From a virus: a stretch of 22,739 nt of DNA. Positions 1-22,373 of the stretch are shown in pieces. The DNA lies in IMG/VR virus record IMGVR_UViG_3300049717_000028, positions 1 to 22,739 of that record. One strand, 5' to 3'. A model generated the notes under the pieces. It saw nothing but the letters and a program-made list of their open reading frames with translations. It was not told the origin of the DNA and did not search any database. Both the position numbers and the translations under genes were made by a program. The stretch's first letter is position 1. Each line of letters opens with the position of its first letter.

Positions 1-2440
1 TTACCTCAGCCGATTCTAAATATTTTAAACCATCAAGAAAGTATTGCGTATTCAACTCCGCTGCCCTTGCTTTTCTTTTCAGAAACAAAGACCTGTAAGG
101 CACTGTCATTAATCCACCGAATGGATCGAAAACAGTATCCCCCTTGTTGCTATACCTTATGATAATTCTATCCACAATATCAAACTGTAAAGGGCAAATA
201 TGATTGTTTAAACCTGCTCTTGTTTGCTCATTATTAAGCGTAATCATACGGCACACATCATGCCAGACGTCCTCATTGTGCGAACCTGGGGCAAGAGTCA
301 TAAAGCTACTTGGCAAATTGCCCTTTAGATCAAGTTTTTCGCCTATTGCAATATGATGTTCGTAGTTATATATGTTCTTCAATGTCATTTCAGTAAACAT
401 TCTTGATAAAACGTCGGGCGCGTATCCTGAAAGCTCTTCCGGTGTTAAAAGCCTGTTCCCGGAAGATCTCCAAAAAGAATGTGCATCTACTTGCCACCTT
501 GCGCGTGTATAATCTTCCTTGCTCTTTTCTACTGGAATATCCGCATAAGCTCTCGACGTGTCACTTGGTAACTTCCTGAAAAGTAAAATGTATTCTGGGC
601 AACCTACACCCATCTTTGAGCCGTCCTTGCTGTTTTCAGTCCAGCCCAAACGGTAAGTCTGGTTGTTTTCTCTTACAACATCCGTGACAACAGTAATCAT
701 GCCAAAATAAATAAAACCATGCTTAACAAAGTTCTGTATTGTGGCACAATGAAACGGTTCCATGCTTGGCATGCCGTACCCGGTTGTATTGCCAAAAAGA
801 ACGCGGTCTTTTACGTGTATTGCCGCAACTCTACCAGGTTGCAATATCCGCAATAATTGAGGTGTTAAAAAGTCCATCTGTTCGAAAAACTTTTGCGTAT
901 CTTTGTTATGTCCAAAATCGTTGTATGTGGATGTGTATTCGTAATGGTTTCCGAACGGTATTGATGTATGGATAAGCCCGATACTATTATCTGGTATCAA
1001 TTTAACCTCATCCACGCAATCATTATTAGCCACTATATAATCTTTCCCGCTTGACTCTATTCTAGTAACTCCAATTGTGCGCTTTAACTCTCCTGCCATT
1101 TCATCATGAGAAAGCCCGTATTTTCTTATTATTTCACTCATTTTCTCTACCATCCTTTTGTGATTTTCCCATTTGTGCATAAGGGTTTTAAAAACTTCAA
1201 TTTCATTATCTGTATAGATAAGATGGATATGGCATTCTTTACTTTGCAAGAACCTGTATATCCGGTGAACTGCTTGAATAAAATCATTGAACTTGAAGCC
1301 TATACCTATAAAAATAGCGTTGTTGCAATGTCTTTGAAAATTACACCCAGACCCTGAAAGTATAGGTTTTGTGGCAAGGTATTTAAACTCGCCATTTCCA
1401 AAATCAACAACTCTTTGTTCTCTTATCTCCATGTCTTGTGATCCGTATACTTCCAAACATTCGGGCAAATTTTTCTTTAAAATATGGCGTTCTTCTTCTC
1501 GGTCGTGCCACAAAATAAAGTGATCTTCTGGACTACCTGATATTATTTCTACTGCCTTTTTAACTCTCAATTCTATACTATCTTTTTTCTCTTTTGATGC
1601 ATCATGTAAATTCATTTTCACATCAGGCAGAAGTTTCATTTGACCGTCTTTTTCTTCATATTCTTTGAAGTCGGTTTTTACCACATGCTCATGTATTGTC
1701 AATGGCGGCAAAGAATATCTGTCATCACTATACCCAAGGTCGGACGGTTTTTGTAAAAATATTGCCCATGAACTCATCCATAGCCAGAACTCTTTTTCCA
1801 TGCACGGCATGAGAGTTAAGTTGTTAGCCTGTGTTGAATCCCTTTTAAAAAAGCGGGTTAAAGCCTGGCCAGTATCCATAATTCCAAGAAATCCAGCATA
1901 GTGAATAAGCTCTTTATACTTATTTGGTGAAGGTGTGGCAGTTGCAACAAAGCGGTATTTTACCGATTGAAACATTTGCAAAAACGATTGATATGTTTTA
2001 GAACCATAAGAGCGCAAGACGCTTGCTTCATCCAAGGAAACCGCGTTGAATAAATTCACGTCAAGTTTTCCATCACGTACTGATTCATAATTTGTTAAGT
2101 ATAATCCTGTTTCATTCACCTCTTCACTTTTACGAACAAAATGAACCGGCACACCTAATTTTCCAGCATCAATTTTAAATTCGTGACGTACTCCCAATGG
2201 CGTAATTATAAGTTGTCTACCTTTTTCGTTTTGAGCTATTAATCGCATGCATTCTATTTGTATAAACGATTTACCCAAACCGAACGCTGCAAAAATTGCA
2301 CGCTTCCCGCCCTCGATTGCCCACCGAACAATGTCGTTTTGATGGGGGTATAATAAGCTATTCACATCTTCACGCTTTACCACAAACCCTGTTTTTTCTG
2401 ATAGGCAAATTTTAGATGCCAAGAAATCTATGTACTCCAT
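1..2440 (-). CDS. Helicase-DNA methyltransferase fusion protein (3' end off window)
   Basis: This ORF is open for 813 codons from ATG 2440 to the left edge, with no in-frame stop on codon-by-codon translation. GAGAGG lies 5 nt before the ATG. The N-terminal half is an SF2/SNF2-like helicase: Walker A FGLGKS (about 53-58), DEAS box (137-140), TATP (167-170), a motif-V-like LSGSG (361-365) and motif VI QAVHRIYRFLQ (389-399). The C-terminal half resembles a beta-class N6/N4 methyltransferase: a motif-IV-like TSIPF (492-496), then the SAM-binding VFDPFGG (770-776), in the order IV before I that defines the beta class. Canonical motif IV is (D/S/T)PPY or TSPPY, so the first proline is Ile here. 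Family knowledge suggests DNA methylation coupled to an ATP-driven translocase. The target and role (self-protection, counter-defence, replication) are not visible. The HNH gene lies 47 nt upstream in the same operon. Helicase assignment is firm, methyltransferase fairly firm, activity unproven. Confidence 0.88.
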   Translation of the reverse strand, partial: MEYIDFLASKICLSEKTGFVVKREDVNSLLYPHQNDIVRWAIEGGKRAIFAAFGLGKSFIQIECMRLIAQNEKGRQLIITPLGVRHEFKIDAGKLGVPVHFVRKSEEVNETGLYLTNYESVRDGKLDVNLFNAVSLDEASVLRSYGSKTYQSFLQMFQSVKYRFVATATPSPNKYKELIHYAGFLGIMDTGQALTRFFKRDSTQANNLTLMPCMEKEFWLWMSSWAIFLQKPSDLGYSDDRYSLPPLTIHEHVVKTDFKEYEEKDGQMKLLPDVKMNLHDASKEKKDSIELRVKKAVEIISGSPEDHFILWHDREEERHILKKNLPECLEVYGSQDMEIREQRVVDFGNGEFKYLATKPILSGSGCNFQRHCNNAIFIGIGFKFNDFIQAVHRIYRFLQSKECHIHLIYTDNEIEVFKTLMHKWENHKRMVEKMSEIIRKYGLSHDEMAGELKRTIGVTRIESSGKDYIVANNDCVDEVKLIPDNSIGLIHTSIPFGNHYEYTSTYNDFGHNKDTQKFFEQMDFLTPQLLRILQPGRVAAIHVKDRVLFGNTTGYGMPSMEPFHCATIQNFVKHGFIYFGMITVVTDVVRENNQTYRLGWTENSKDGSKMGVGCPEYILLFRKLPSDTSRAYADIPVEKSKEDYTRARWQVDAHSFWRSSGNRLLTPEELSGYAPDVLSRMFTEMTLKNIYNYEHHIAIGEKLDLKGNLPSSFMTLAPGSHNEDVWHDVCRMITLNNEQTRAGLNNHICPLQFDIVDRIIIRYSNKGDTVFDPFGGLMTVPYRSLFLKRKARAAELNTQYFLDGLKYLESAEV

Positions 2441-2487: not shown

Positions 2488-2994
2488 CTATTGCGTTAAT
2501 TTTCTTCCATGGAATAACTCATGACAAGTAGTGCAAAGAGTTATCATAGAACGCATGGAACATTCCCAAATATATTTTCCATCATACGTGTTATGATGAA
2601 CATGCAAGCTTTCTTTTTTGTTGCCGCATATCATGCATTTAAAACCGTCACGGGTCATAATTTCCAAACGTCTTCTTTGCCAGTTAGGATGTAGGTACTG
2701 TTCTTTCCATGGGATATTACCTTCAACCTTAACCATTTTTTCAAGTGGAACAAGCTTTTCTTTTTTAGATGCCATTTGGTCTTGAGCTAGGTCAATGTTT
2801 TTTGCTCTTTTATTTAAGTGCGCATTTTTTAGACTCAAAAATATTTCAGCGTCACTATCTGGAATTTCTTTTCCAATTGCACCTTCCAACCAACCCCGAA
2901 CCGGATACTGATAACCCAAAAGTAAAATCTGTTTATTATTCCAAGATCCTTTTTCACTTATACCTTGTAAAATAAACTCTCTTGTAATTATCAT
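2488..2994 (-). CDS. HNH endonuclease with small N-terminal domain
   Basis: A 168-residue protein. The C-terminal third is an HNH nuclease: CxxC (C120, C123), the HVHH core (131-134) and a second CxxCH (C154, C157, H158) with H162, giving the beta-beta-alpha-metal site plus a structural zinc. Residues 1-55 form a separate small domain (SWNNKQILLLG at 17-27, then a PVRGWLEGAIGKEI-type segment). I associate such a domain with short phage proteins that occur alone or joined to HNH modules; its function is unknown to me. ATG 2994 is preceded by AAGGAAATTAAGT, a good ribosome site. The gene sits just upstream of the helicase-methyltransferase. It could be a free-standing homing-type nuclease, a packaging or nicking nuclease, or the nuclease partner of the methyltransferase. 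The sequence does not decide between these. Confidence 0.85.
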   Translation of the reverse strand: MIITREFILQGISEKGSWNNKQILLLGYQYPVRGWLEGAIGKEIPDSDAEIFLSLKNAHLNKRAKNIDLAQDQMASKKEKLVPLEKMVKVEGNIPWKEQYLHPNWQRRRLEIMTRDGFKCMICGNKKESLHVHHNTYDGKYIWECSMRSMITLCTTCHELFHGRKLTQ

Positions 2995-3660: not shown

Positions 3661-3980
3661 TTTTTTGCCTTTCCTGTTATGTGTAGTTTATCGAAATGTT
3701 CGTTTTTGCAATCTGGGCAAATGCTATCGCTATGATTTTTATCCGCTATTATACGCCAATCCCAGTTACCACGGCTATCTATAACCATCGCGGCTGCATC
3801 AATTGCACACCAAGCGCACCGCGTATATATACCCTCTGGTGAGCGCATGATAGGGTTAAGCCAGTCTCCCCGCATTGATACCACGTGACCACGGATTGTA
3901 TGGCTAACACCGCGCAACGCCCAAATTCGAGAGTTTTGAGCGGTTAGGCGGGTTTTGTCTGTGTAGATGGGTGCGGTCAT
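3657..3980 (-). CDS. Small protein with two CxxC pairs, 107 aa
   Basis: This 107-residue soluble protein has two cysteine pairs, C55-x2-C58 and C88-x2-C91. That spacing could bind one zinc ion as a split zinc ribbon. The N-terminal half (residues 1-50) is rich in Arg and aromatics and contains RGVSHTIRGHVVSMRGDW; it may be a nucleic-acid-binding surface, though this is inference only. ATG 3980 overlaps the TGA of the Imm5-like gene, and its own TGA overlaps the next ATG, giving an ATGA-coupled chain of three genes. No named family is recognised. Confidence 0.8.
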   Translation of the reverse strand: MTAPIYTDKTRLTAQNSRIWALRGVSHTIRGHVVSMRGDWLNPIMRSPEGIYTRCAWCAIDAAAMVIDSRGNWDWRIIADKNHSDSICPDCKNEHFDKLHITGKAKK

Positions 3981-4522
3981 GATGGATTATCCAAAATTGA
4001 TATCCCATAAATTAGCATTTTTATTTTCATTTCGTCTGCGGCGTATGCGGCGTATGCGGCGTATGTGGCGTTTGCGGCGTATGCGTCGTTTGCGTCGTTT
4101 GCGGCGTTTGCGGCGTATGCGGCGTATGCGGCGTATGCGGCGTATGTGGCGTATGTGGCGTATGTGGCGTTTGCGGCGTTTGCGGCGGCGTATGCGGCGT
4201 TTGCGGTATCACTACAAGGATTTTTTACATACTCTTTTGCTGCTTCAATTGCACTCCGTGGCCTTTTATCTTCAGGATATTTTTTTTCATAAATATCAAT
4301 TACTTGCTCTGCTGCAAATATTGCATATTTAATGTTTTGCGTTTTTGTAAAAAGATGATTTAATAACCAGTTTCCCCAATTAAGTGCGTTCTGGTTTTCG
4401 TTTTTTGTTTCTATTAATTTTGCAATGCAACTTTCGGCTGTGGCAAATTGATTTTTGGAGTACCACAACAGCCCTTCATTGCATGGCCTAAGACTTTTTA
4501 CTTTGCAAAGATTCAATTCCAT
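3977..4522 (-). CDS. Imm5-like alpha-helical protein with Ala-Ala-Tyr repeats
   Basis: A 181-residue protein. Residues 1-105 are helical and resemble the family annotated as putative immunity protein Imm5. The cues are WGNWLLNHLF (49-58), a YAIFAAEQVIDIYEKKYPED stretch (66-85) and RPRSAIEAAKEY (88-99). Residues 106-163 are an almost pure Ala/Tyr/Asn/Thr tract built on a 3-residue unit (Ala-Ala-Tyr), and a short non-repeat tail follows (DEMKIKMLIYG...). The start is well supported by AGGAGGAAAAAAT before ATG 4522. Imm5 was defined computationally in bacterial toxin-immunity loci. I cannot see a cognate toxin here, so immunity function is not established. The repeat tract comes from a 9-bp DNA repeat, so its length can change without loss of frame. 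Confidence 0.75.
   Translation of the reverse strand: MELNLCKVKSLRPCNEGLLWYSKNQFATAESCIAKLIETKNENQNALNWGNWLLNHLFTKTQNIKYAIFAAEQVIDIYEKKYPEDKRPRSAIEAAKEYVKNPCSDTANAAYAAANAANATYATYATYAAYAAYAAYAANAANDANDAYAANATYAAYAAYAADEMKIKMLIYGISILDNPS
4034..4207. repeat. 9-bp tandem repeat (minisatellite) inside the Imm5-like gene
   Basis: About 19 imperfect copies of a 9-bp unit (GCGGCGTAT on the plus strand; variants GCGGCGTTT, GTGGCGTAT and GCGTCGTTT). One junction carries an extra GCG. Each copy encodes three residues (Tyr-Ala-Ala and variants). The periodicity keeps several frames on both strands open, which creates artefactual ORFs on the plus strand and in another minus frame. Confidence 0.95.
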
Positions 4523-7760: not shown

Positions 7761-9335
7761 CTATTGAACTACCTGTAAGGCATTCGTTCCGGTTAAAATA
7801 TAAAGCGCTCCCGCTGTTAAGCCACCTGCAATTGCCAGTGCGTTGGTCGCGTATGTAGGCAACCCTACAACCTGAAGTTTACTTGTCGGTGCCGTCGTTC
7901 CGATACCAACTCTTTCATTTGTTAAATCTAGCATTAGAATCGGATTTGTTGGATTTGTTGCTAAACTGCTAGTCCTTCCATACCCTGTACCAACACCTGC
8001 TCCGGATCCGCTTCCAACAGCATAAAAAACGCCGTAGTATGCACTATGCGTTGGTGCCACGTCAAGAAACGGTGTCGTTGTGTTAGCTAATCGCAAACAT
8101 TTTGGAAGTACTATTTGACCGCTTTGCAAAACTGATACCGCATTAATTGGTGTACCGGAGTTATATGTATCAATGTTGAACGATTCGTTTACCGCTGTCC
8201 TAATTCCCCAATATCCACCAGTTCCAACATAATTATATTTTGTACTGTAACCCGTTCCTACATCAATTACGTTGGTATGAGTCGTTTGAGATATAATTCC
8301 GCCTGCAACTTCCAGTTTGTAATTTACCGTTGTTGTGCCAATCCCGACATTACTCCCACTATCATAAATCAAACTATTCCCAAGCGTTGTCACTCCCGCC
8401 GTATTTGTTATTTTCGGAATATACCCTGTAGTACCAAAATTCCCTGCAAGGTAATCAGTACCGGAAACCGCGCTTGCAAATCCGGCAGCCGTAAATTTCG
8501 CCATGGCTCCGGCAGTACCTATTGCTCCCAAATCTGCGTTTACAACCGCGCTATTAGTTATTTGTCCTTGGGTTGCGCTAATATGTAATATCCCTGCGCT
8601 TGCTTTAGCTAACAGCGGCATCCATATACACGTGTTTTGCGCTCCGCCGTCCCAGTCTCCTATTTTTAACGCTACCCCAGCAGAGCCGCATGTTTCTGCT
8701 CCTACGCTAAAATTGTGATACTTTTCTGCATAGTGATCGTATACGCCTGTTGCGCTACTGTAAGAATACGTGTACCCATCACGGAATTTTAATTTATTAT
8801 CACTTGCAAATAAAACATCTTGAGTCCCGCCTAAAATTCTAAACGATTCAGTGTTGTCGGTTTTAAATACCAAGTCACCTTCATCGTGTGCCCAATCATA
8901 TTGCAAAATACCGTCAAGCCCGTTTTGAAACAAGCTAATTTCAGAATAATCGGCAAAATTAATTTTGAATTGTTTTTGACTGTGTAGGGTTGTTGCGTCT
9001 TCATATACGCTGCTGTCTATAACGTTGTCGCCAGCAGGATTAAACATTGCATGGTACAATGTGGTTCCGTCAATAGGCGTTGCACCATCTGCTATGATAG
9101 CGTCAAGAGCGCCGGCAACCTCTGTGACTAATGGATACTCACTATTTGTATAAGCAGAATCTGATGCAAGCAAAGAGTCTTGCGGGAGAAAATACACTGG
9201 CCCATTAGTAGGACTATTAAACATCATTCGCAATCTCAAATCACTTTCAAAGCCAGATTGCGATACGAGCAACTGCGATGGTAATGTCGCCGTTGCTCGC
9301 TCTTTCATCAAATTTGCACCAATTAATAATGTCAT
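7761..9335 (-). CDS. Tail fibre / receptor-binding protein
   Basis: A 524-residue Gly/Ser/Thr/Asn-rich protein. It carries two copies of the trimeric-fibre motif VGIGTT...KL(E/Q)V (from residues 330 and 476), which precede shaft or head segments in many phage fibres. The last 35 residues (VGLPTYATNALA...GLTAGALYILTG...VVQ) are a C-terminal module I recognise from many fibre proteins, where a GLpxGxlYxtg strand set ends in a Val-Val pair. The N-terminal part probably attaches to the tail tip. ATG 9335 has GGAG at 9-nt spacing. It lies downstream of the tail hub and the 112-aa protein, as receptor-binding proteins usually do. Receptor specificity cannot be read. Confidence 0.82.
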   Translation of the reverse strand: MTLLIGANLMKERATATLPSQLLVSQSGFESDLRLRMMFNSPTNGPVYFLPQDSLLASDSAYTNSEYPLVTEVAGALDAIIADGATPIDGTTLYHAMFNPAGDNVIDSSVYEDATTLHSQKQFKINFADYSEISLFQNGLDGILQYDWAHDEGDLVFKTDNTESFRILGGTQDVLFASDNKLKFRDGYTYSYSSATGVYDHYAEKYHNFSVGAETCGSAGVALKIGDWDGGAQNTCIWMPLLAKASAGILHISATQGQITNSAVVNADLGAIGTAGAMAKFTAAGFASAVSGTDYLAGNFGTTGYIPKITNTAGVTTLGNSLIYDSGSNVGIGTTTVNYKLEVAGGIISQTTHTNVIDVGTGYSTKYNYVGTGGYWGIRTAVNESFNIDTYNSGTPINAVSVLQSGQIVLPKCLRLANTTTPFLDVAPTHSAYYGVFYAVGSGSGAGVGTGYGRTSSLATNPTNPILMLDLTNERVGIGTTAPTSKLQVVGLPTYATNALAIAGGLTAGALYILTGTNALQVVQ

Positions 9336-9738: not shown

Positions 9739-12700
9739 TTATTCTAATAAAGAATCTACATAAGTATCAATATCACCCGTTTCATCAAGAGAATCAACGT
9801 AATCTACAGCATCAGGCGTTTCGTTAAGCCCTGTTGGATCTGGGTAAGGCGTATATTCTGTTGGCATCAATAACACTTTTAACCGCAATTGATCTTTGCC
9901 GGTTACCGGAGAAATTGAAACAATATACCCATGTCTTATTTCATCGTTTGTATAAACAATATCTTTTACTCCTACGACCTTCATCAATTCAAGCTCAATT
10001 GTCGTTGAATTAATCGGCACTGAATACGGTATCAATCCTTTTTGCAAAGTTACCCACTGAGCAAGTATTTTAAGGAAATAATAAGCGGATGAAGAATCGC
10101 CTGTTCCCCATGTTGTATTCTCGTCAAATAAAGCCCTATCTATAAACCAGTTCAATTGTGAAATGTCGTTTTGAGATTGTCTTACTACTCTGTTTACATT
10201 GTAAGAGTTCTTGCATTGATCCCAAATATATTTAGATTCAACATATCCGTCTGTCGGGAAATTGGGACTGCCAAGAAGTCCGCCGAAACATAAGTACCAA
10301 AGCGGTTCGGAAAATAAACCTACAGTCCATGTACTAAAACTGCCAGTCCCCTTTGTCGCTTGTACCGCTACAACCATAATACCGGTACTTGAATCATAAG
10401 AAACAATAGTTCCATACATAAAACGCGCGGTATCGTGTTGAATCAAAACTATCTGGCTAGGAGAGAAAGCAAAGCCTGTTCCGCATGTTACTGTTTTGTT
10501 TACATTGTTCGCAATAGTCAAAGTGGTTGTTGATGTAGTTTGCAAAGTAGCATCAACAACAGATTGATAAGGATCTGGAAACGTTGCAAACATGTCAATA
10601 TTTGCGACAACAAAAGACCGGATAAAAGCCTGTAAGCCAGGATCGAAATTGTATTGCAGTAAAAAATTATTGAATAGTTGCATTACGTCCGTTAGCTCAA
10701 AATCTTCTATTGAATCGCGCCCGATAATATTTAAGTCATGCGTAACTTCTGGAACAAGTGCAATATCTGGGTTAATAGAGCGCAATCCGCGCATCCCGGT
10801 ACGAGTTGGAAACATTGCAACAAAAGAATGTGCGCAAAGTTCGTTTAAATAATTTACGCTGTTTTTTCTATCGGTAAGCGTCCGGCCTACATGCCAATCG
10901 GATCTATCAGTGGCTAGAGTGCCATAGTCAATAAGTGCTGGTGGTATTCCATCGTAATCTTCCAATATGTGCATAAAAGCATGGTAAACATCGTTTGTTG
11001 CGTGGCTTGCATCTGTCGCGGTTGATCCGGTAAGTTCCCCAGTCGCCTTTGTATATAAGTCTCCCTTAATCGTGTCAATTTGCTTTTCAATTACTACCGA
11101 TATCTCTTTTACATTAACCTTGAGAGTGGTTCCTGGCAAAAGGTTTCTTTTTATTACAAGGCGAAATCTTATATTGACAATATTTGGATTAGAAAATATA
11201 CTTGTATCTGTTATTTTAAATATGTTTTTAAACGTGTTTCCTGTTGTACTTGCTCTAATTCCAAGAAGGTTTGATTTGTCTGTTGCATTAAAATTAGTTA
11301 TAAGATCGTTTGGCACAGCATTTACTTGGCTATAGTTTGGATTGTTTGGGCCAGTAAAAATAAGGTCTGAAGTCACTCCAGAAGATCCAGAATGTTCGTT
11401 TCCGTAAATATCCATAGCTATCCATTGTATGTACCAAAGATAAATACCCGCACCTGAAGATCTGTTTACTATCGTAAAATCAACACAAAAATAAACATTG
11501 TCACTTGTGTCGATAATTGTTTGAGACGGTTTATAGTCCGCAAATATTGCGCCGTACCTATTCGTGGCATCAAATATTTGCGACATTGCTTTAGCTGTGC
11601 TTCTGTCTCTATCTGTAACTAAAACAATATCGTCTCCATCATATTTTTCAACAACACCCCAAACCCCAGGATCATTAAAGCGCTCTGTTCCGTATGCAAC
11701 CATTTGCATATTAAAATATTGATACACAGAAGATTTTCCTTCAGGAGTTGACTGGTTCGCTACAAGCTTTACAGAATTTCCACTGGAATTTATTTTTGCT
11801 ATTGGAGAAATATCAATATACTCTTTTAGGTCAGAAGAGAAATCATATATTTGTATTCCGTTAGAACCTTCTACCGCAACAGCAGAATCAAAATATGAAA
11901 GCTGCGCTGTTGTCTCATATTTTGATATTTGAAACCAGTAAATAAAACCATGTGTAGTATTTGGCTTATAATGATCAGATGGCTCAAAATAAATACCAGG
12001 GGGAACTTCTCCGTGCTTGCAGTCCCATGCTGCATGTAAAGTTCCATCATCTTTAAGTAATGGAGCTGCCAAATACAACGATATTTCTATATAAGGATAT
12101 ATCGATGGAGCGCTTCCTGTTGAACTGTTTGAAAGTATTTTGTACATTTGTTTTGTGCTTATATTGCTATCACCAACAGCAACAGACAAATAATAATCTT
12201 TCAATTGATCGTCTGCAATATAAATATTTTTTGTAACTATCAGTTTTAAAATCCAGGGGCCGGTTATTGGATCGGCCGCAGGGGCGTCATAAGAGCTGGA
12301 AGCCGCAAGCGTGTATTTTAATCCAGTAGAGTTTAACCCTGTTGATGTATTAAATTTATTCAACTCTACAAAAGTATTACTGCTTTCTAATTTCAACAGC
12401 TTTGTTTTCGGCACGTCCCCAAATATTACCGGTATCGCTTGCCCGGACGAGCTGTCGATAACGTTTGGATTATTTGTTGGGTTTGTCGTGAGAGGTGGGA
12501 GCATCTTGTGAATCAAGTTTGCATCGTCTTGCACATCAAAATTATAATCAGTTTCAGTATATGGATTATTTACAACCCGACCGCGTGCAACTTGATAAAA
12601 AACATCATCTATCACAACCCACATTATCACACGTCTACCAGTAAAAGAAATATTATTTGTCTTGCAATAATTCCAAAACTTAGCATCATTTCTTACTTTA

Positions 12701-13029
12701 AAACCAAAAGCAGAATCGGTTTTATAAGACCCGCAAGAAATAATATCAACTGACCTTTCAGGGTCAGAAGTGAAAGCATCTTGGAGTAAAAATCCTTCTT
12801 TATATGGGCCGTCAACTGGGGCTCCAGACATGTTGGATCCGTCAACATTTATTTCGTGTGGGCCGTAAGTGGGAATATTTATTGTTCCATCGTAGCCGGG
12901 ATTATCTGTTATTAATTGGAAAATCCCATCAACAAGACCAACGTCACTATCAGTAAGTGTATTCCAATCCGTGTCAGTATCTTCTGAAAATATTTGCAAT
13001 GCGTAATGTATGCCTTTTTTTACCGTCAT
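9739..13029 (-). CDS. Tail hub / central tip protein, 1096 aa
   Basis: The largest complete ORF in the window. The N-terminal ~200 residues look like a baseplate-hub domain: DPERSVDIISCGS, then RVIMWVVIDDVFYQVARGRVVNNPYTETDYNF, then GQAIPVIFGDVPK, which resembles the KPIPIVYG-type turn of gpJ/hub-like proteins. The centre (about 250-680) is beta-rich and divergent and may form carbohydrate-binding or Ig-like modules. The C-terminus (DEIRHGYIVSISPVTGKDQLRLKVLL) is again hub-like. It follows the distal tail gene by 1 nt, with GAGG 9 nt before ATG 13029. Expected role: closing the tail tube at the tip and holding fibres. No lysozyme or peptidase motif was seen. Confidence 0.75.
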   Translation of the reverse strand: MTVKKGIHYALQIFSEDTDTDWNTLTDSDVGLVDGIFQLITDNPGYDGTINIPTYGPHEINVDGSNMSGAPVDGPYKEGFLLQDAFTSDPERSVDIISCGSYKTDSAFGFKVRNDAKFWNYCKTNNISFTGRRVIMWVVIDDVFYQVARGRVVNNPYTETDYNFDVQDDANLIHKMLPPLTTNPTNNPNVIDSSSGQAIPVIFGDVPKTKLLKLESSNTFVELNKFNTSTGLNSTGLKYTLAASSSYDAPAADPITGPWILKLIVTKNIYIADDQLKDYYLSVAVGDSNISTKQMYKILSNSSTGSAPSIYPYIEISLYLAAPLLKDDGTLHAAWDCKHGEVPPGIYFEPSDHYKPNTTHGFIYWFQISKYETTAQLSYFDSAVAVEGSNGIQIYDFSSDLKEYIDISPIAKINSSGNSVKLVANQSTPEGKSSVYQYFNMQMVAYGTERFNDPGVWGVVEKYDGDDIVLVTDRDRSTAKAMSQIFDATNRYGAIFADYKPSQTIIDTSDNVYFCVDFTIVNRSSGAGIYLWYIQWIAMDIYGNEHSGSSGVTSDLIFTGPNNPNYSQVNAVPNDLITNFNATDKSNLLGIRASTTGNTFKNIFKITDTSIFSNPNIVNIRFRLVIKRNLLPGTTLKVNVKEISVVIEKQIDTIKGDLYTKATGELTGSTATDASHATNDVYHAFMHILEDYDGIPPALIDYGTLATDRSDWHVGRTLTDRKNSVNYLNELCAHSFVAMFPTRTGMRGLRSINPDIALVPEVTHDLNIIGRDSIEDFELTDVMQLFNNFLLQYNFDPGLQAFIRSFVVANIDMFATFPDPYQSVVDATLQTTSTTTLTIANNVNKTVTCGTGFAFSPSQIVLIQHDTARFMYGTIVSYDSSTGIMVVAVQATKGTGSFSTWTVGLFSEPLWYLCFGGLLGSPNFPTDGYVESKYIWDQCKNSYNVNRVVRQSQNDISQLNWFIDRALFDENTTWGTGDSSSAYYFLKILAQWVTLQKGLIPYSVPINSTTIELELMKVVGVKDIVYTNDEIRHGYIVSISPVTGKDQLRLKVLLMPTEYTPYPDPTGLNETPDAVDYVDSLDETGDIDTYVDSLLE

Positions 13030-13806: not shown

Positions 13807-15804
13807 TTATCTCCGTATTACCAATCCACTTGCATTCAATTTACCCATTATTTGCGCTTTTTGCAAAGCCTTAGTCACGCCCTTGTCGATATGGTCTTGT
13901 ATCAATTTAAGATCATACCGGCTTGGTGAGCCTTGCACTACAACAGCGCCGGACATATGTATGTTTACATTGCCGTTGTTGTTTGTCGTGGAGCTTCCAC
14001 CAATAATAGAGGCAAGAGCTGGATTGGGGTGAGCAGGATTATACACAATCTCGCCAGGCATGAGCATTGCAGGCACGCTATCCTGTCCAGCAGTTCCACC
14101 GGTAACCACACCACCGTACGCCATTTTCTGTTGTTCAATAATCGCAATCTGTGCCGCTGTCTCCGCTCCAATAAGCACGGTAGATGCTATTCCGGCCGCA
14201 AGCATAACAGGGTATGGTTGCAATTGAGATGCGGCAGACCACCCGCCCATAACCGCCCTTGCCCCATCAACTAAGGCTGCCCCTTGTTGTATTCTTTTCC
14301 TAACAGTGGCGTTTGCATGCGTTGCTTCGGCTATAGTTTCAAGGGATTTTATTGTCATATCGGCATAATATGCACCAGTATTTACTTTTTGCTGCGCTTC
14401 TGCAATGGCAAAACGTAAGCGTTCTTCTGCTTGTTCTTTTTCTATTGCTGTTAAATCCCCGCCATGTTTTTTTACATCTTGCAATTCTGCTTTTTGCTGC
14501 ATATCTAAAAGCTTCCGTCTGCCCGCTTCAGTTTTCTTCATTGCTGCAAGCTTATAATCATTCTGAAAATTTATATCAGCATTCATTCTATCTATTGTTA
14601 GTTTTTTATCAATAGCCGCGTCTTCTTTTGCAAGTTGTGCTAATTCATCAAGCTCTTCTTGCTTTGCTTTGACTCTTACATCTTTAATTTTGAATCCTAA
14701 TTCAGCATTGGATTTTACCATTTTTGCAAATTCAACAGCATCCAGTTGCCTGGCTTTTTTTGCTGCTTCCATAGCTGCACTATTATCAGTTAAATCACCA
14801 ACTCCGCCACCACTCTTTTTTACATCTTTGGGGCCATTAATAATATCAGCTTGCTTTTTGATTAAATCCTTTAATTTCTCATTTAATATAGTAACTTGAG
14901 GGTTTACAAGTTTTAATCCTTGGTATCCAAAATTAAAATCTTTTTTGCTTAATTCATCTATTTGCTCTTTTGTTAATTTTATAGAAAGCCCTATCATTTC
15001 AATCTCTGCGGCTTTTTCTTTTGCCGCATGCTCTCCGCCAAAAATAAACTTTGCACCCTCTGCCATTTGAAGCATGAACCCAGCAGCCTTTTCAATAGCA
15101 GGGGCAAATGTAGAAACGATTTCAGCATTAGTTACCTTGAAATACATGCTTATTCGTTCGATTGATTTGTTAGCATCATCTAACGAATTAAGCTGTGATT
15201 GTGATAGGGTAAATTTTTTAGATTCATTTGCTAAATCACTAAATTTTTCAGCTCCCAAAGCTGCAAGATTCATAGCGTCACCAGCGGCCTTGCCTAGCAG
15301 TTTTGTCGCTACAGCAAGTCGCTCCGTAGGGTTTTTTATTTGAGACAATCTTTTGATAACATCTGCCATCATATCGCTTGACTGTCTTAATTCCCCGTTA
15401 TGTTCCTTTGTTGAGATTGTGAGTTTTTGAAATATAGGGTCGTTCGCTTGTGCTTTTGCAGCAAGCTCTTTAAATCCCTTTGAAAGCGATCCTATATCAG
15501 CGTCACCCTCTTTTGCTATATATGCCCATTTCTGAAAAGTAGCAGCCGACATTCCCAGTTTAGTTGAAGTCTTGTCTATAGTGGCTCCCATTTCGAGAGA
15601 CTGTTTTGTAATATCAACAAGCTTCATTGCAGCAAATGCACCGGCCGCTATTCCAGCCGCGTTTTTTGCCATATCTCCAAAACTCACAGCATGGTCCGAC
15701 ATCTTCCCCATGCTCGCTTTGACTTTTTCTTCCTCTACTTTTATACTGGCTGCAAGCGTGCTTTGTAATTTCAGCATCACTTGTATGTCGTGTTCATTAG
15801 CCAT
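13807..15804 (-). CDS. Tape measure protein
   Basis: ATG 15804 is preferred over GTG 15813 because AAAGGTG sits 8 nt upstream of it, giving 665 residues. The N-terminal ~200 residues contain the TMP-like region (SLEMGATIDKTSTKLGMSA, about 70-88; then AFQ/GFKELA and KLLGKAAGDA segments). The centre is a long Lys/Glu/Ala coiled coil. A hydrophobic stretch (PVMLAAGIASTVLIGAETAAQIAII) precedes the typical C-terminal GG-V-TGGTAGQDSVPAMLMPGEIV turn (about 563-587). The start overlaps the chaperone G-T stop by 8 nt. It sets tail length and is ejected with DNA. The size predicts a tail near 100 nm by the usual ratio, which is an estimate. Confidence 0.93.
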   Translation of the reverse strand: MANEHDIQVMLKLQSTLAASIKVEEEKVKASMGKMSDHAVSFGDMAKNAAGIAAGAFAAMKLVDITKQSLEMGATIDKTSTKLGMSAATFQKWAYIAKEGDADIGSLSKGFKELAAKAQANDPIFQKLTISTKEHNGELRQSSDMMADVIKRLSQIKNPTERLAVATKLLGKAAGDAMNLAALGAEKFSDLANESKKFTLSQSQLNSLDDANKSIERISMYFKVTNAEIVSTFAPAIEKAAGFMLQMAEGAKFIFGGEHAAKEKAAEIEMIGLSIKLTKEQIDELSKKDFNFGYQGLKLVNPQVTILNEKLKDLIKKQADIINGPKDVKKSGGGVGDLTDNSAAMEAAKKARQLDAVEFAKMVKSNAELGFKIKDVRVKAKQEELDELAQLAKEDAAIDKKLTIDRMNADINFQNDYKLAAMKKTEAGRRKLLDMQQKAELQDVKKHGGDLTAIEKEQAEERLRFAIAEAQQKVNTGAYYADMTIKSLETIAEATHANATVRKRIQQGAALVDGARAVMGGWSAASQLQPYPVMLAAGIASTVLIGAETAAQIAIIEQQKMAYGGVVTGGTAGQDSVPAMLMPGEIVYNPAHPNPALASIIGGSSTTNNNGNVNIHMSGAVVVQGSPSRYDLKLIQDHIDKGVTKALQKAQIMGKLNASGLVIRR

Positions 15805-16647
15805 GTTTAGCACCTTTATTTTTAATAGTCAAAGCTTTGGACATTTCGGACTCAAATATTTTAACGTATTGCAAGTACCTATTTGGGTATTCATCAAAAA
15901 CAAGCGGTCTTGCCAGTCCGCTTTTTATTGCATCGTATCTATCTAAAAAGTCATCAATGCATCCTGCTAAAAATCTAGCAGGGCAATTATGAAACGAGTC
16001 GTAGTCGTCTTCCAATATAGCAACTTCTACAGACTCGTTACAGCCCCAATCTTTCCTTGCATCCTCATCGCATCCGTTGCAATCGTAAGTAAATATACCG
16101 GCGCGGACGCACGCCGCTACTTTAAAGAAATACGTTCCCCAGCGGTAACACCAGATAGCCGATACACAAACGCCCGGAGATCTGAATAAACCCAGTCAGG
16201 CATACGGCTTGAATCCCAAAGCGATTTATCAACGCCACTTACAGAATCGGCTTTGAAATCAACTTCTTCAAGAGTGCCAAGATCAACAAAATTTTTCCAT
16301 CCAAGAATCACTTTCCGCACAAGCTCTTTTGTTTTTGCCATTGTATCAAGCAGTTTAGAATTATCCTTATCAAGCACCTCTTCATGCATGAGCTTTCCAG
16401 CTTCATCATATTCTGATTTTGTGAACGGCCTCACAGTAAAAACAGGTTGGAAACTTACAGGAATAAGGAAGTCAAGTAAAGCGCCTTTTTCATCCTTATT
16501 TACAAATTTTTCTTCTTTTGCATCCCATCGTTCGTTCCTTCTCAAGAAAAAAGATGGAATATACTCAATACTTGCACTTGGAGAAAATGGCAAGTACCCT
16601 GCTAACTGCTTTCTCATTTCATCTGTCAAAACTCTCTTCTCTCCCAT
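15797..16647 (-). CDS. Tail assembly chaperone G-T (-1 frameshift product)
   Basis: This is the frameshifted form of the preceding chaperone: read 16647 to 16120, slip back one base (16120 read twice), then continue to TAA 15797, for 283 residues. The downstream frame is open from 16195 and has no good start of its own; the TTG at 16015 begins inside a conserved-looking domain. The extension (177-283) carries C190-x2-C193-x9-C203 and C222 in an FHNCPARF context, a likely zinc site. It ends with a charged helix. In lambda and many siphophages, G and G-T bind the tape measure and tail-tube subunits; the T part recruits the tube protein. Located between tube and tape-measure genes exactly as expected. 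Confidence 0.88.
16099..16126 (-). promoter_or_regulatory. Programmed -1 frameshift signal: T TTA AAG slippery site plus hairpin
   Basis: On the minus strand the heptamer T TTA AAG (16120-16126) lies in the zero frame of the chaperone gene as TCT TTA AAG, directly before its TAG (16117-16119). It fits X XXY YYZ. Slipping -1 leads into the open downstream frame (next codon GTA). A GC-rich hairpin, CGGCG with CGCCG around an 8-nt loop (16099-16116), follows after only the 3-nt stop codon. That spacer is shorter than the usual 5-9 nt. Confidence 0.9.
16117..16647 (-). CDS. Tail assembly chaperone G (zero-frame product)
   Basis: A 176-residue protein between the major tail protein and tape measure genes. 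It is mixed alpha/beta: an N-terminal polar segment (VLTDEMRKQLAGYLPF), a beta-containing middle (ALLDFLIPVSFQPVFTVRPFTKSEYDEA, about 56-83) and a helical region (NSKLLDTMAKTKELVRKVILGWKNF). The VSFQPVFTVRPFTKSEYD part resembles the RPFTxxEYxE segments of phage tail chaperones. AGAGGAC precedes ATG 16647. It ends ERISLK just after the slippery heptamer. It would be made in large excess over the G-T form and is normally absent from the mature virion. Confidence 0.85.
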   Translation of the reverse strand: MGEKRVLTDEMRKQLAGYLPFSPSASIEYIPSFFLRRNERWDAKEEKFVNKDEKGALLDFLIPVSFQPVFTVRPFTKSEYDEAGKLMHEEVLDKDNSKLLDTMAKTKELVRKVILGWKNFVDLGTLEEVDFKADSVSGVDKSLWDSSRMPDWVYSDLRAFVYRLSGVTAGERISLK

Positions 16648-21143: not shown

Positions 21144-22373
21144 CTAGCCCACCAGCAAGAAAAGGTTCTGCGGATTCGGAACGCCGACACCGAAAGCAAG
21201 GGCAAATTCAATTGTAATCTGCCTGTGTTCCATCCACGCGCAAACCTGATACACAAGTTTACTGCGAGGATCAGGAAGAAGTTTGCAATCAATGAGAGTG
21301 CCAACAGCACCGGTCACGCCTGTTGCGGTTCCACCAAGACCAACAGGAAGCATGGGCTGTCTTGCTACAAGGTGAATTGCATCTCTGGAAAAGAAAGGAG
21401 ACGCAAGGAATGTTTGAGCGCCTGTTCCAATAACAGTGATTGCGTCACCAGTTGCTCCTGCTATATAAAGGCCAGGAGCTGCAATGGTAATGCTTGTAGG
21501 GGAAGCTCCCCCGGTTGTGGAAAGCACAACATACTGGTGAGTCGTGTCGCTTGCAAACTTGACAATGTCGCCAATACCAATTGCACCTGTGCCGTTATGG
21601 ATTGCAATAACCTGAGGCGTGGTAGAAGGGCCAGCGGCTGCGGCACCATCCAGTACGTTACCTGTAGAAGCGCCTGGAGTGTGACGAGTCTTGATCTGGG
21701 GGGAAACGCCAACATTAAACCCTTCGATCTGTCCGATTGTACCGGTACGCAACATACGATCCATCCCGGCTTCGTTCGCTTTGAACAAGTTGGGAATCTT
21801 GCGAACAGCGGCGGCTGGAGTCGTGCCAAGGATCATGTGGATATCGGCATCAGGCGTACCATTGTCTTCCATTTCCTTGAGAGAATCAGCAAAGTTTTCC
21901 ATGCCTGAAACGGTCGATCCGTTGAAAGCAAATGGGGCGGTTCCAGGAGTGCCAACAGCACGACAAGCGCTGATTGCGGCTTTGGTAATGATTGCAGATT
22001 CAACATAATTGCGAATTGCGCGGATACACTGCGCTGTCTGATCTGCATAGTACTGAGAAATTCCACCAAGGGCAAGTTGTCTCTGCTCTTCACCATTCCA
22101 CTTGAAAGCAGCGGCCTTGGAGTCTGTAATTGACATTGTGCCAGTGCCAGCAGTATCACCATTGATGTCAACTGGATTTGCCTGTGCAGTAACATCGTAA
22201 AGAGTTTTTGCAGGGGCAATTGGATACGTAATTGTCTGTCCGACAACAGCCTGCGCAAGATCTGAATTGAGAGTAACCGCGTCAATAGCGTCCGTCTTTT
22301 CGTTGTTGACCATATTCAACGCACGAAAAAAGGTGGGCATGAGTCCGGTTAGAATGTTCGATGATGTAGGCAT
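21144..22373 (-). CDS. Major capsid protein, P22-coat family
   Basis: A 409-residue protein, close to P22 coat (430). Features fit the P22 coat (gp5) line of the HK97 fold. The N-terminal arm and E-loop region include TITYPIAPAKTLYD. AAFKWNGEEQRQL (about 88-100) is followed by a long spine helix (QTAQCIRAIRNYVESAIITKA). There is an insertion-domain-like beta segment (GTGAIGIGDIVKFAS... about 260-330). The C-terminal pair is FSRDAIHLVARQPMLP and ITIEFALAFGVGVPNPQ, which corresponds to the ADDAIRIVSQPI / ...GVNATRPEAIGVGLP ends of P22 coat. AAAGG lies upstream of ATG 22373. It forms the icosahedral shell and probably needs a scaffold, likely the gene just upstream. Confidence 0.85.
   Translation of the reverse strand: MPTSSNILTGLMPTFFRALNMVNNEKTDAIDAVTLNSDLAQAVVGQTITYPIAPAKTLYDVTAQANPVDINGDTAGTGTMSITDSKAAAFKWNGEEQRQLALGGISQYYADQTAQCIRAIRNYVESAIITKAAISACRAVGTPGTAPFAFNGSTVSGMENFADSLKEMEDNGTPDADIHMILGTTPAAAVRKIPNLFKANEAGMDRMLRTGTIGQIEGFNVGVSPQIKTRHTPGASTGNVLDGAAAAGPSTTPQVIAIHNGTGAIGIGDIVKFASDTTHQYVVLSTTGGASPTSITIAAPGLYIAGATGDAITVIGTGAQTFLASPFFSRDAIHLVARQPMLPVGLGGTATGVTGAVGTLIDCKLLPDPRSKLVYQVCAWMEHRQITIEFALAFGVGVPNPQNLFLLVG

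Follow-up and report, generated by a model that had tools for sequence, protein, structure and literature searches.

Phage SNF2 motors have been described as widely coupled to adenine methylases in a 2017 paper on polyvalent proteins (PMC5512222). Phage P1 DNA is protected in cis against type I restriction by DarB, a virion protein that combines a methylase with a SNF2 motor (PMC5512222). A large family of phage proteins, PHROG 16 ('DNA helicase'), likewise joins a motor to a methylase, and many of its GenBank members are already labelled 'DNA helicase/methylase'. Beta-class amino-methyltransferases without a motor, including TTHA0409, M.BceJIV, CcrM, M.MboIIA and M.PvuII, share the fold and motif order of the methylase in the fusion protein analyzed here.

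The window, by which we mean the whole stretch of DNA that was analyzed, is a virus record of 22,739 bases with a minus-strand gene run at whose 3' end lies a helicase-methyltransferase fusion ORF. The PHROG 16 profile matches residues 24-812 of this protein (E 2.3e-118), making it a full-length member of the family. Relatives were found in 350 GenBank phage records, in 295 of which the match spans 80% or more of the query, with hosts that include Mycobacterium, Arthrobacter, Flavobacterium, Pseudomonas and Pseudanabaena among others. A single query retrieved 518 candidate stretches from IMG/VR, and bacterial-genome loci are present in Pseudomonadota, Actinomycetota, Bacteroidota, Clostridia and other groups. 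Plasmids rarely carry the family; among 72,556 records, 14 gave a match of any kind. The family is thus very widespread, occurring in hundreds of phages and in prophages of many bacterial groups. Mycobacteriophage GUmbie gp64, Arthrobacter phage Persistence gp69 and Flavobacterium phage FCL-2 gp51 are 48-58% identical to the window protein over the full length, with the same domain order, S[I/V]PF and DPFGG motifs and no substantial difference. Within this large phage helicase-methylase family, which already carries annotation, the window protein is an ordinary member, and the suggestion in the initial annotation that such fusions exist in other phages was correct.

DarB, described as a polyvalent 'DNA methylase-helicase dyad', resembles the fusion protein in joining a phage SNF2-type motor to an amino-methylase (PMC5512222), but its methylase is gamma-class, carries NPP(Y/F) and lies N-terminal to the motor together with LPD36, whereas the methylase of the fusion protein is beta-class, C-terminal and carries S[I/V]PF. 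Assignment to the DarB-type dyads was rejected because the window methylase is C-terminal, beta-class and carries TSIPF; DarB is an analogue of the fusion protein and not a member of the same group. Among known systems DarB is the closest parallel that has experimental support, and its proposed role is anti-restriction.

Domain architecture of the fusion protein

The fusion ORF and its motifs are arranged as follows.

2..2440, minus strand: helicase-methyltransferase fusion ORF, ATG at 2440, 813 codons, PHROG 16
1166..2353, minus strand: SNF2-type SF2 motor, residues ~30-425, by Pfam and predicted fold
2267..2284, minus strand: Walker A / motif I FGLGKS (53-58), conserved in relatives
2021..2032, minus strand: Walker B / motif II DEAS (137-140), D137 and E138 invariant
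1931..1942, minus strand: helicase motif III TATP (167-170), invariant
1244..1276, minus strand: helicase motif VI QAVHRIYRFLQ (389-399), Q389, R393, R396 and Q399 invariant
2..1045, minus strand: beta-class N6A/N4C methyltransferase domain, residues ~466-813, by PF01555 and predicted fold
953..967, minus strand: motif IV TSIPF (492-496), catalytic loop, Ile for the first proline
167..202, minus strand: motif X region HICPLQFDIVDR (747-758), H747 and P750 invariant, Q752 98%
113..127, minus strand: motif I DPFGG (772-776), SAM binding, D772 in 157/158
56..58, minus strand: motif II acidic residue E795, 157/158

The reading frame is uninterrupted and runs off the record before its C-terminus is complete; homologous open frames in relatives are mostly just slightly longer than 813 codons. 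The initial annotation had described one uninterrupted frame of at least 813 codons, which is borne out and to which the strand, minus, can be added. It had also proposed an SF2/SNF2-like helicase on the strength of FGLGKS, DEAS, TATP and QAVHRIYRFLQ, all of which are present, with R393 and R396 as the motif VI arginines. Pfam SNF2-rel_dom matches residues 54-191 (E 9e-5) at 22.2 bits, below its curated cut-off of 24.9, and Helicase_C matches the protein at E 0.055. An AlphaFold model (pLDDT 80, pTM 0.74), for which only sequences from the window and related loci served as input, was compared with known structures using Foldseek and matched Isw1 (E 3e-16), INO80, CSB and other SNF2 motors at E ~1e-15. 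The SF2 motifs and the SNF2 fold place the motor in the SNF2 family despite the sub-cut-off Pfam score. Type III and type ISP restriction enzymes carry a nuclease domain within or alongside the motor. Pfam, PHROGs and PADLOC matches included no such domain, and this, together with the lack of a constant nuclease neighbour, led us to reject an assignment to these enzymes.

Pfam N6_N4_Mtase (PF01555) matches residues 489-800 (E 3e-11; 44 bits, cut-off 26.7), and the motifs follow the beta-class order, IV (492), X (747) and I (772). When the methylase domain was modelled alone (pLDDT 79, pTM 0.78), it superimposed on TTHA0409 with Z 23.9 and 2.2 Å over 225 residues, followed by M.BceJIV (Z 23.6), MboIIA (23.2), CcrM (N6A; 22.7) and M.PvuII (N4C; 22.4). 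KsgA/Erm folds are absent among the matches listed in this comparison, which carries no weight either way. Instead of the canonical (D/N/S)PP(Y/F/W) of the PF01555 class, motif IV reads S-I-P-F, a feature that is clade-wide; the beta-class structures 2zie and 8s9n, checked by sequence, have (D/S)PP(Y/F) where SIPF stands here. A canonical motif IV overlooked elsewhere was ruled out by a motif scan: the protein contains no second PP(Y/F/W), its only other 'PP' being LPPL at 245, and the methyltransferase part of 158 full-length relatives contains no second (D/N/S/T/A)PP(Y/F/W). The earlier proposal of a methyltransferase region (TSIPF, then VFDPFGG) with isoleucine for the first proline of motif IV therefore agrees with both the profile homology beyond residue ~450 and the scan. 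The PP consensus is a usual and not a defining trait, and beta-class homology stands by profile and predicted fold.

Two clades that depart from the canonical motifs at different residues

Methylase domains from 409 ORFs were clustered at 90% identity into 232 clusters, which fall into two groups, A and B. Group A comprises 160 clusters, of which 159 encode motor and methylase in one frame, and its motif IV is S[I/V/W]PF throughout (TSIPF in 146 clusters, TSVPF in 8, SSIPF in 5 and TSWPF in 1). Motif I retains its Asp in 158 of these clusters, the other two being unaligned there. The window protein, with S[I/V/W]PF and DPFxG in one fused gene, belongs to this fused clade. Across the 158 aligned members S493, P495 and F496 are invariant, as are H542 and D545, and position 494 is Ile in 149, Val in 8 and Trp in one. 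The catalytic Ser, second Pro, Phe, SAM-site DPFxG, motif II Glu and motif X are 98-100% conserved. In the same alignment the methylase core and the motor are equally conserved (0.68-0.78 and 0.67-0.71, respectively), and the region between the core motifs, residues 623-735, scores 0.64.

Group B (L331-L410, L087, L088 and L090) comprises 72 clusters, 25 fused to the motor and 47 encoded as a separate gene. Its motif IV is SPPF except in one truncated member, and motif I has S/T-PF (S/T-PFxG) in place of D-PF in 69 clusters and Asp in two. The split form, in which a helicase gene is paired with a site-specific DNA-methyltransferase gene, is represented by Mycobacterium phage Fancypants gp69/gp70 and Gordonia phage GMA1 (PHROG 62 and PHROG 67); it likewise keeps a homologous motor and methylase together but shares only 24-33% identity with the fusion protein and has SPPF as motif IV and S/T-PF as motif I. 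Among the 68 group B clusters with a testable neighbourhood, the motor is fused in 25, directly upstream in 37 and within 2.5 kb in 5, so that 67 keep it near; the sole exception is a truncated methylase. Two split loci carry a gene between the helicase and methylase genes, an HNH gene in Flavobacterium phage hattifnatt9-1 (L090:5530-6021) and a C5-methylase gene in a Rhodoplanes plasmid (L441:4383-5279).

A FastTree phylogeny of groups A and B with 12 chromosomal PF01555 outgroups, taken from genomes carrying the family, was read by bipartitions, one outgroup (L434) aligning badly. It separates all 160 group A clusters (support 0.97) and all 72 group B clusters (0.97), and both together from 11 of the 12 outgroups (0.98). 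Motif IV is (D/S)PP(Y/F) in 10 of the 12 outgroups; the remaining two, among them the misplaced one, do not align at this motif. The canonical chromosomal relatives have both the PP and the motif-I Asp. The sister groups thus leave the canon at different residues: in group A the first motif IV proline is replaced, and in group B the motif-I Asp. D474, S493, P495, F496, H542, H747, P750, F774, G776 and E795 are invariant in a sampled alignment of both groups, and S-x-P-F is complete in both clades. Since these core residues are invariant across A and B, the pattern fits an enzyme that has been maintained with an altered loop and not a decayed one. As judged from these alignments, TSIPF is a fixed hallmark of one family branch, neither a private change nor decay. 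This outcome favors the first of two options raised in the initial annotation, namely that the catalytic loop has changed in a whole subfamily. Separately, a PF01555-like protein in the genome of Actinopolymorpha alba (L423; same genome as L126) has SDGAYG at the motif IV position and EPFGG as motif I.

Candidate activities of the methylase

The fusion protein is probably an active orphan phage DNA amino-methyltransferase that acts on adenine N6 or cytosine N4 and is joined to a double-strand DNA translocase of the SNF2 type. From the domains, conservation and association observed above, namely the two domains, the conserved motifs of the ATPase, a predicted intact SAM pocket, an invariant S-x-P-F and strict association with the motor, we infer catalysis, the target base and the biological role. 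In active amino-methylases the target amino group is contacted by the main-chain carbonyl of the first motif IV proline. Because this catalytic contact comes from the main chain, Ile can serve in place of the proline and methyl transfer should survive; Ile-494 would then reshape the pocket. Active KsgA/Erm enzymes also have a residue other than Pro at this position. Motor and methylase stay together and DarB provides an analogue, which suggests ATP-driven, motor-coupled methylation of newly made or entering phage DNA. The SNF2 motor may carry the methylase along phage DNA or clear proteins off it, and methylation could protect phage DNA from host restriction or mark it as self.

Several observations count against this assignment. 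We found no report in the searchable literature of methylation by, or a biochemical product of, any family member, nor any description of the motif swap in this helicase-methylase family. Position 494 is never Pro in the fused clade, and the active site may therefore differ from that of a plain mono-methylating enzyme. Residues 623-735, where specificity would lie, are fairly conserved, unlike the variable recognition domains that anti-restriction methylases would be expected to have. The HNH gene adjoining the fusion ORF in the window was also counted against it.

The departure of motif IV from the PP consensus could alternatively mark a methylase fold that has lost catalysis and serves the motor as a module for sensing DNA or SAM, similar to the second option of the initial annotation, a domain that lost methylation and kept DNA binding. 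Such a module is unlikely given that S493, P495, F496, H542 and D545 are invariant, D772, E795 and motif X are 98-100% conserved in the 158 members and S-x-P-F is complete in both clades, and a decayed or pseudo-methylase was rejected on the same conservation. Loss of methylation is further weakened as an explanation by active enzymes of other families that carry Ile, Leu or Val at this position (PMC6787224, PMC3814359).

An active methylase with this loop might also transfer two methyl groups. The motif (A/S/N)(L/I/V)P(Y/F) is motif IV of the dimethylating N6-adenine enzymes KsgA and ErmC' (PMC3814359, PMC6787224), ErmC' having NIPY and ErmE AIPY (PMC3814359, PMC6787224). Rebinding of the mono-methylated base in KsgA/ErmC' has been attributed to the small hydrophobic residue (PMC3814359, which cites Schluckebier 1999 and O'Farrell 2012; PMC6787224). 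If the S[I/V]PF loop acted likewise, phage DNA would acquire N6,N6-dimethyladenine or N4,N4-dimethylcytosine, an outcome we consider improbable. The published motif fits 159 of 160 group A clusters, as a motif match only, and PP is present in group B and in those canonical relatives that were tested. However, the motif comes from an unrelated family of rRNA adenine dimethylases with a different motif order and an RNA substrate, so that the likeness is confined to one motif class; the fusion protein has no Pfam match to KsgA/Erm (PF00398) up to E 1, and the two families are without sequence homology. In addition, PikR1 has NVPF, yet is reported to mono-methylate (PMC6787224). It is accordingly doubtful that the fused clade represents a motor-coupled phage DNA dimethylase with a convergent dimethylase-type loop. 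The clade-wide proline swap, set against the loss of Asp in the sister clade, poses a direct question, namely which base is modified and whether it receives one methyl group or two. If it receives two, the product would be a kind of DNA modification that is not known to have been described in phages.

Gene neighbourhood of the fused clade

The minus-strand gene run of the window leads from the major head protein through tail genes and an HNH nuclease to the fusion ORF.

21144-22373, minus strand: major head protein, PHROG 283, E 1e-51
13807-15813, minus strand: tape measure gene
7761-9335, minus strand: tail fibre gene
2488-2994, minus strand: HNH endonuclease gene, PHROG 119 HNH, E 1.7e-12, just upstream of the fusion ORF

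The HNH gene occupies the same place, directly upstream, in mycobacteriophages GUmbie and Fancypants and is not found there in most relatives. These three cases would fit a restriction-modification unit of the phage, with the HNH nuclease cutting DNA left unmodified by the fusion protein. We regard this arrangement as very unlikely: the genes upstream vary widely across 228 relatives and include few Pfam nucleases among the 96 sampled, leaving no constant nuclease partner. The HNH gene was likewise rejected as a conserved partner, HNH and other nucleases being merely occasional at that place. Since the upstream neighbours of group A are so varied (C5 methylase, DnaB, SSB, RecT, YqaJ, DUF669 and HNH), no nuclease is an obligate partner.

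The replication and recombination genes among these neighbours (DnaB, SSB, RecT, YqaJ and DUF669) are in line with an active methylase working on phage DNA. The location of several relatives among such genes would also suit a protein that is mainly a replication or recombination motor (Rad54/RapA-like), with methylation secondary, for example in timing replication or packaging. That the methylase is at least as conserved as the motor argues against such a division of roles, to which we give little credence; the active motor-coupled methylase remains our preferred reading.

The commonest single upstream neighbour in group A is a C5-cytosine methylase, a cluster of 26 of the 228 (e.g. L007:4524-5885). 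Within the window, a 1096-aa ORF amid the tail genes (9739-13029, minus strand) has no PHROG match at E 0.01. A 181-aa ORF (3977-4522, minus strand) contains a long Ala/Tyr/Asn/Thr repeat, AAYAAYAANAAN..., because of which other frames are also open across this region, and matches a family of unknown function, PHROG 38757 (E 4e-28).
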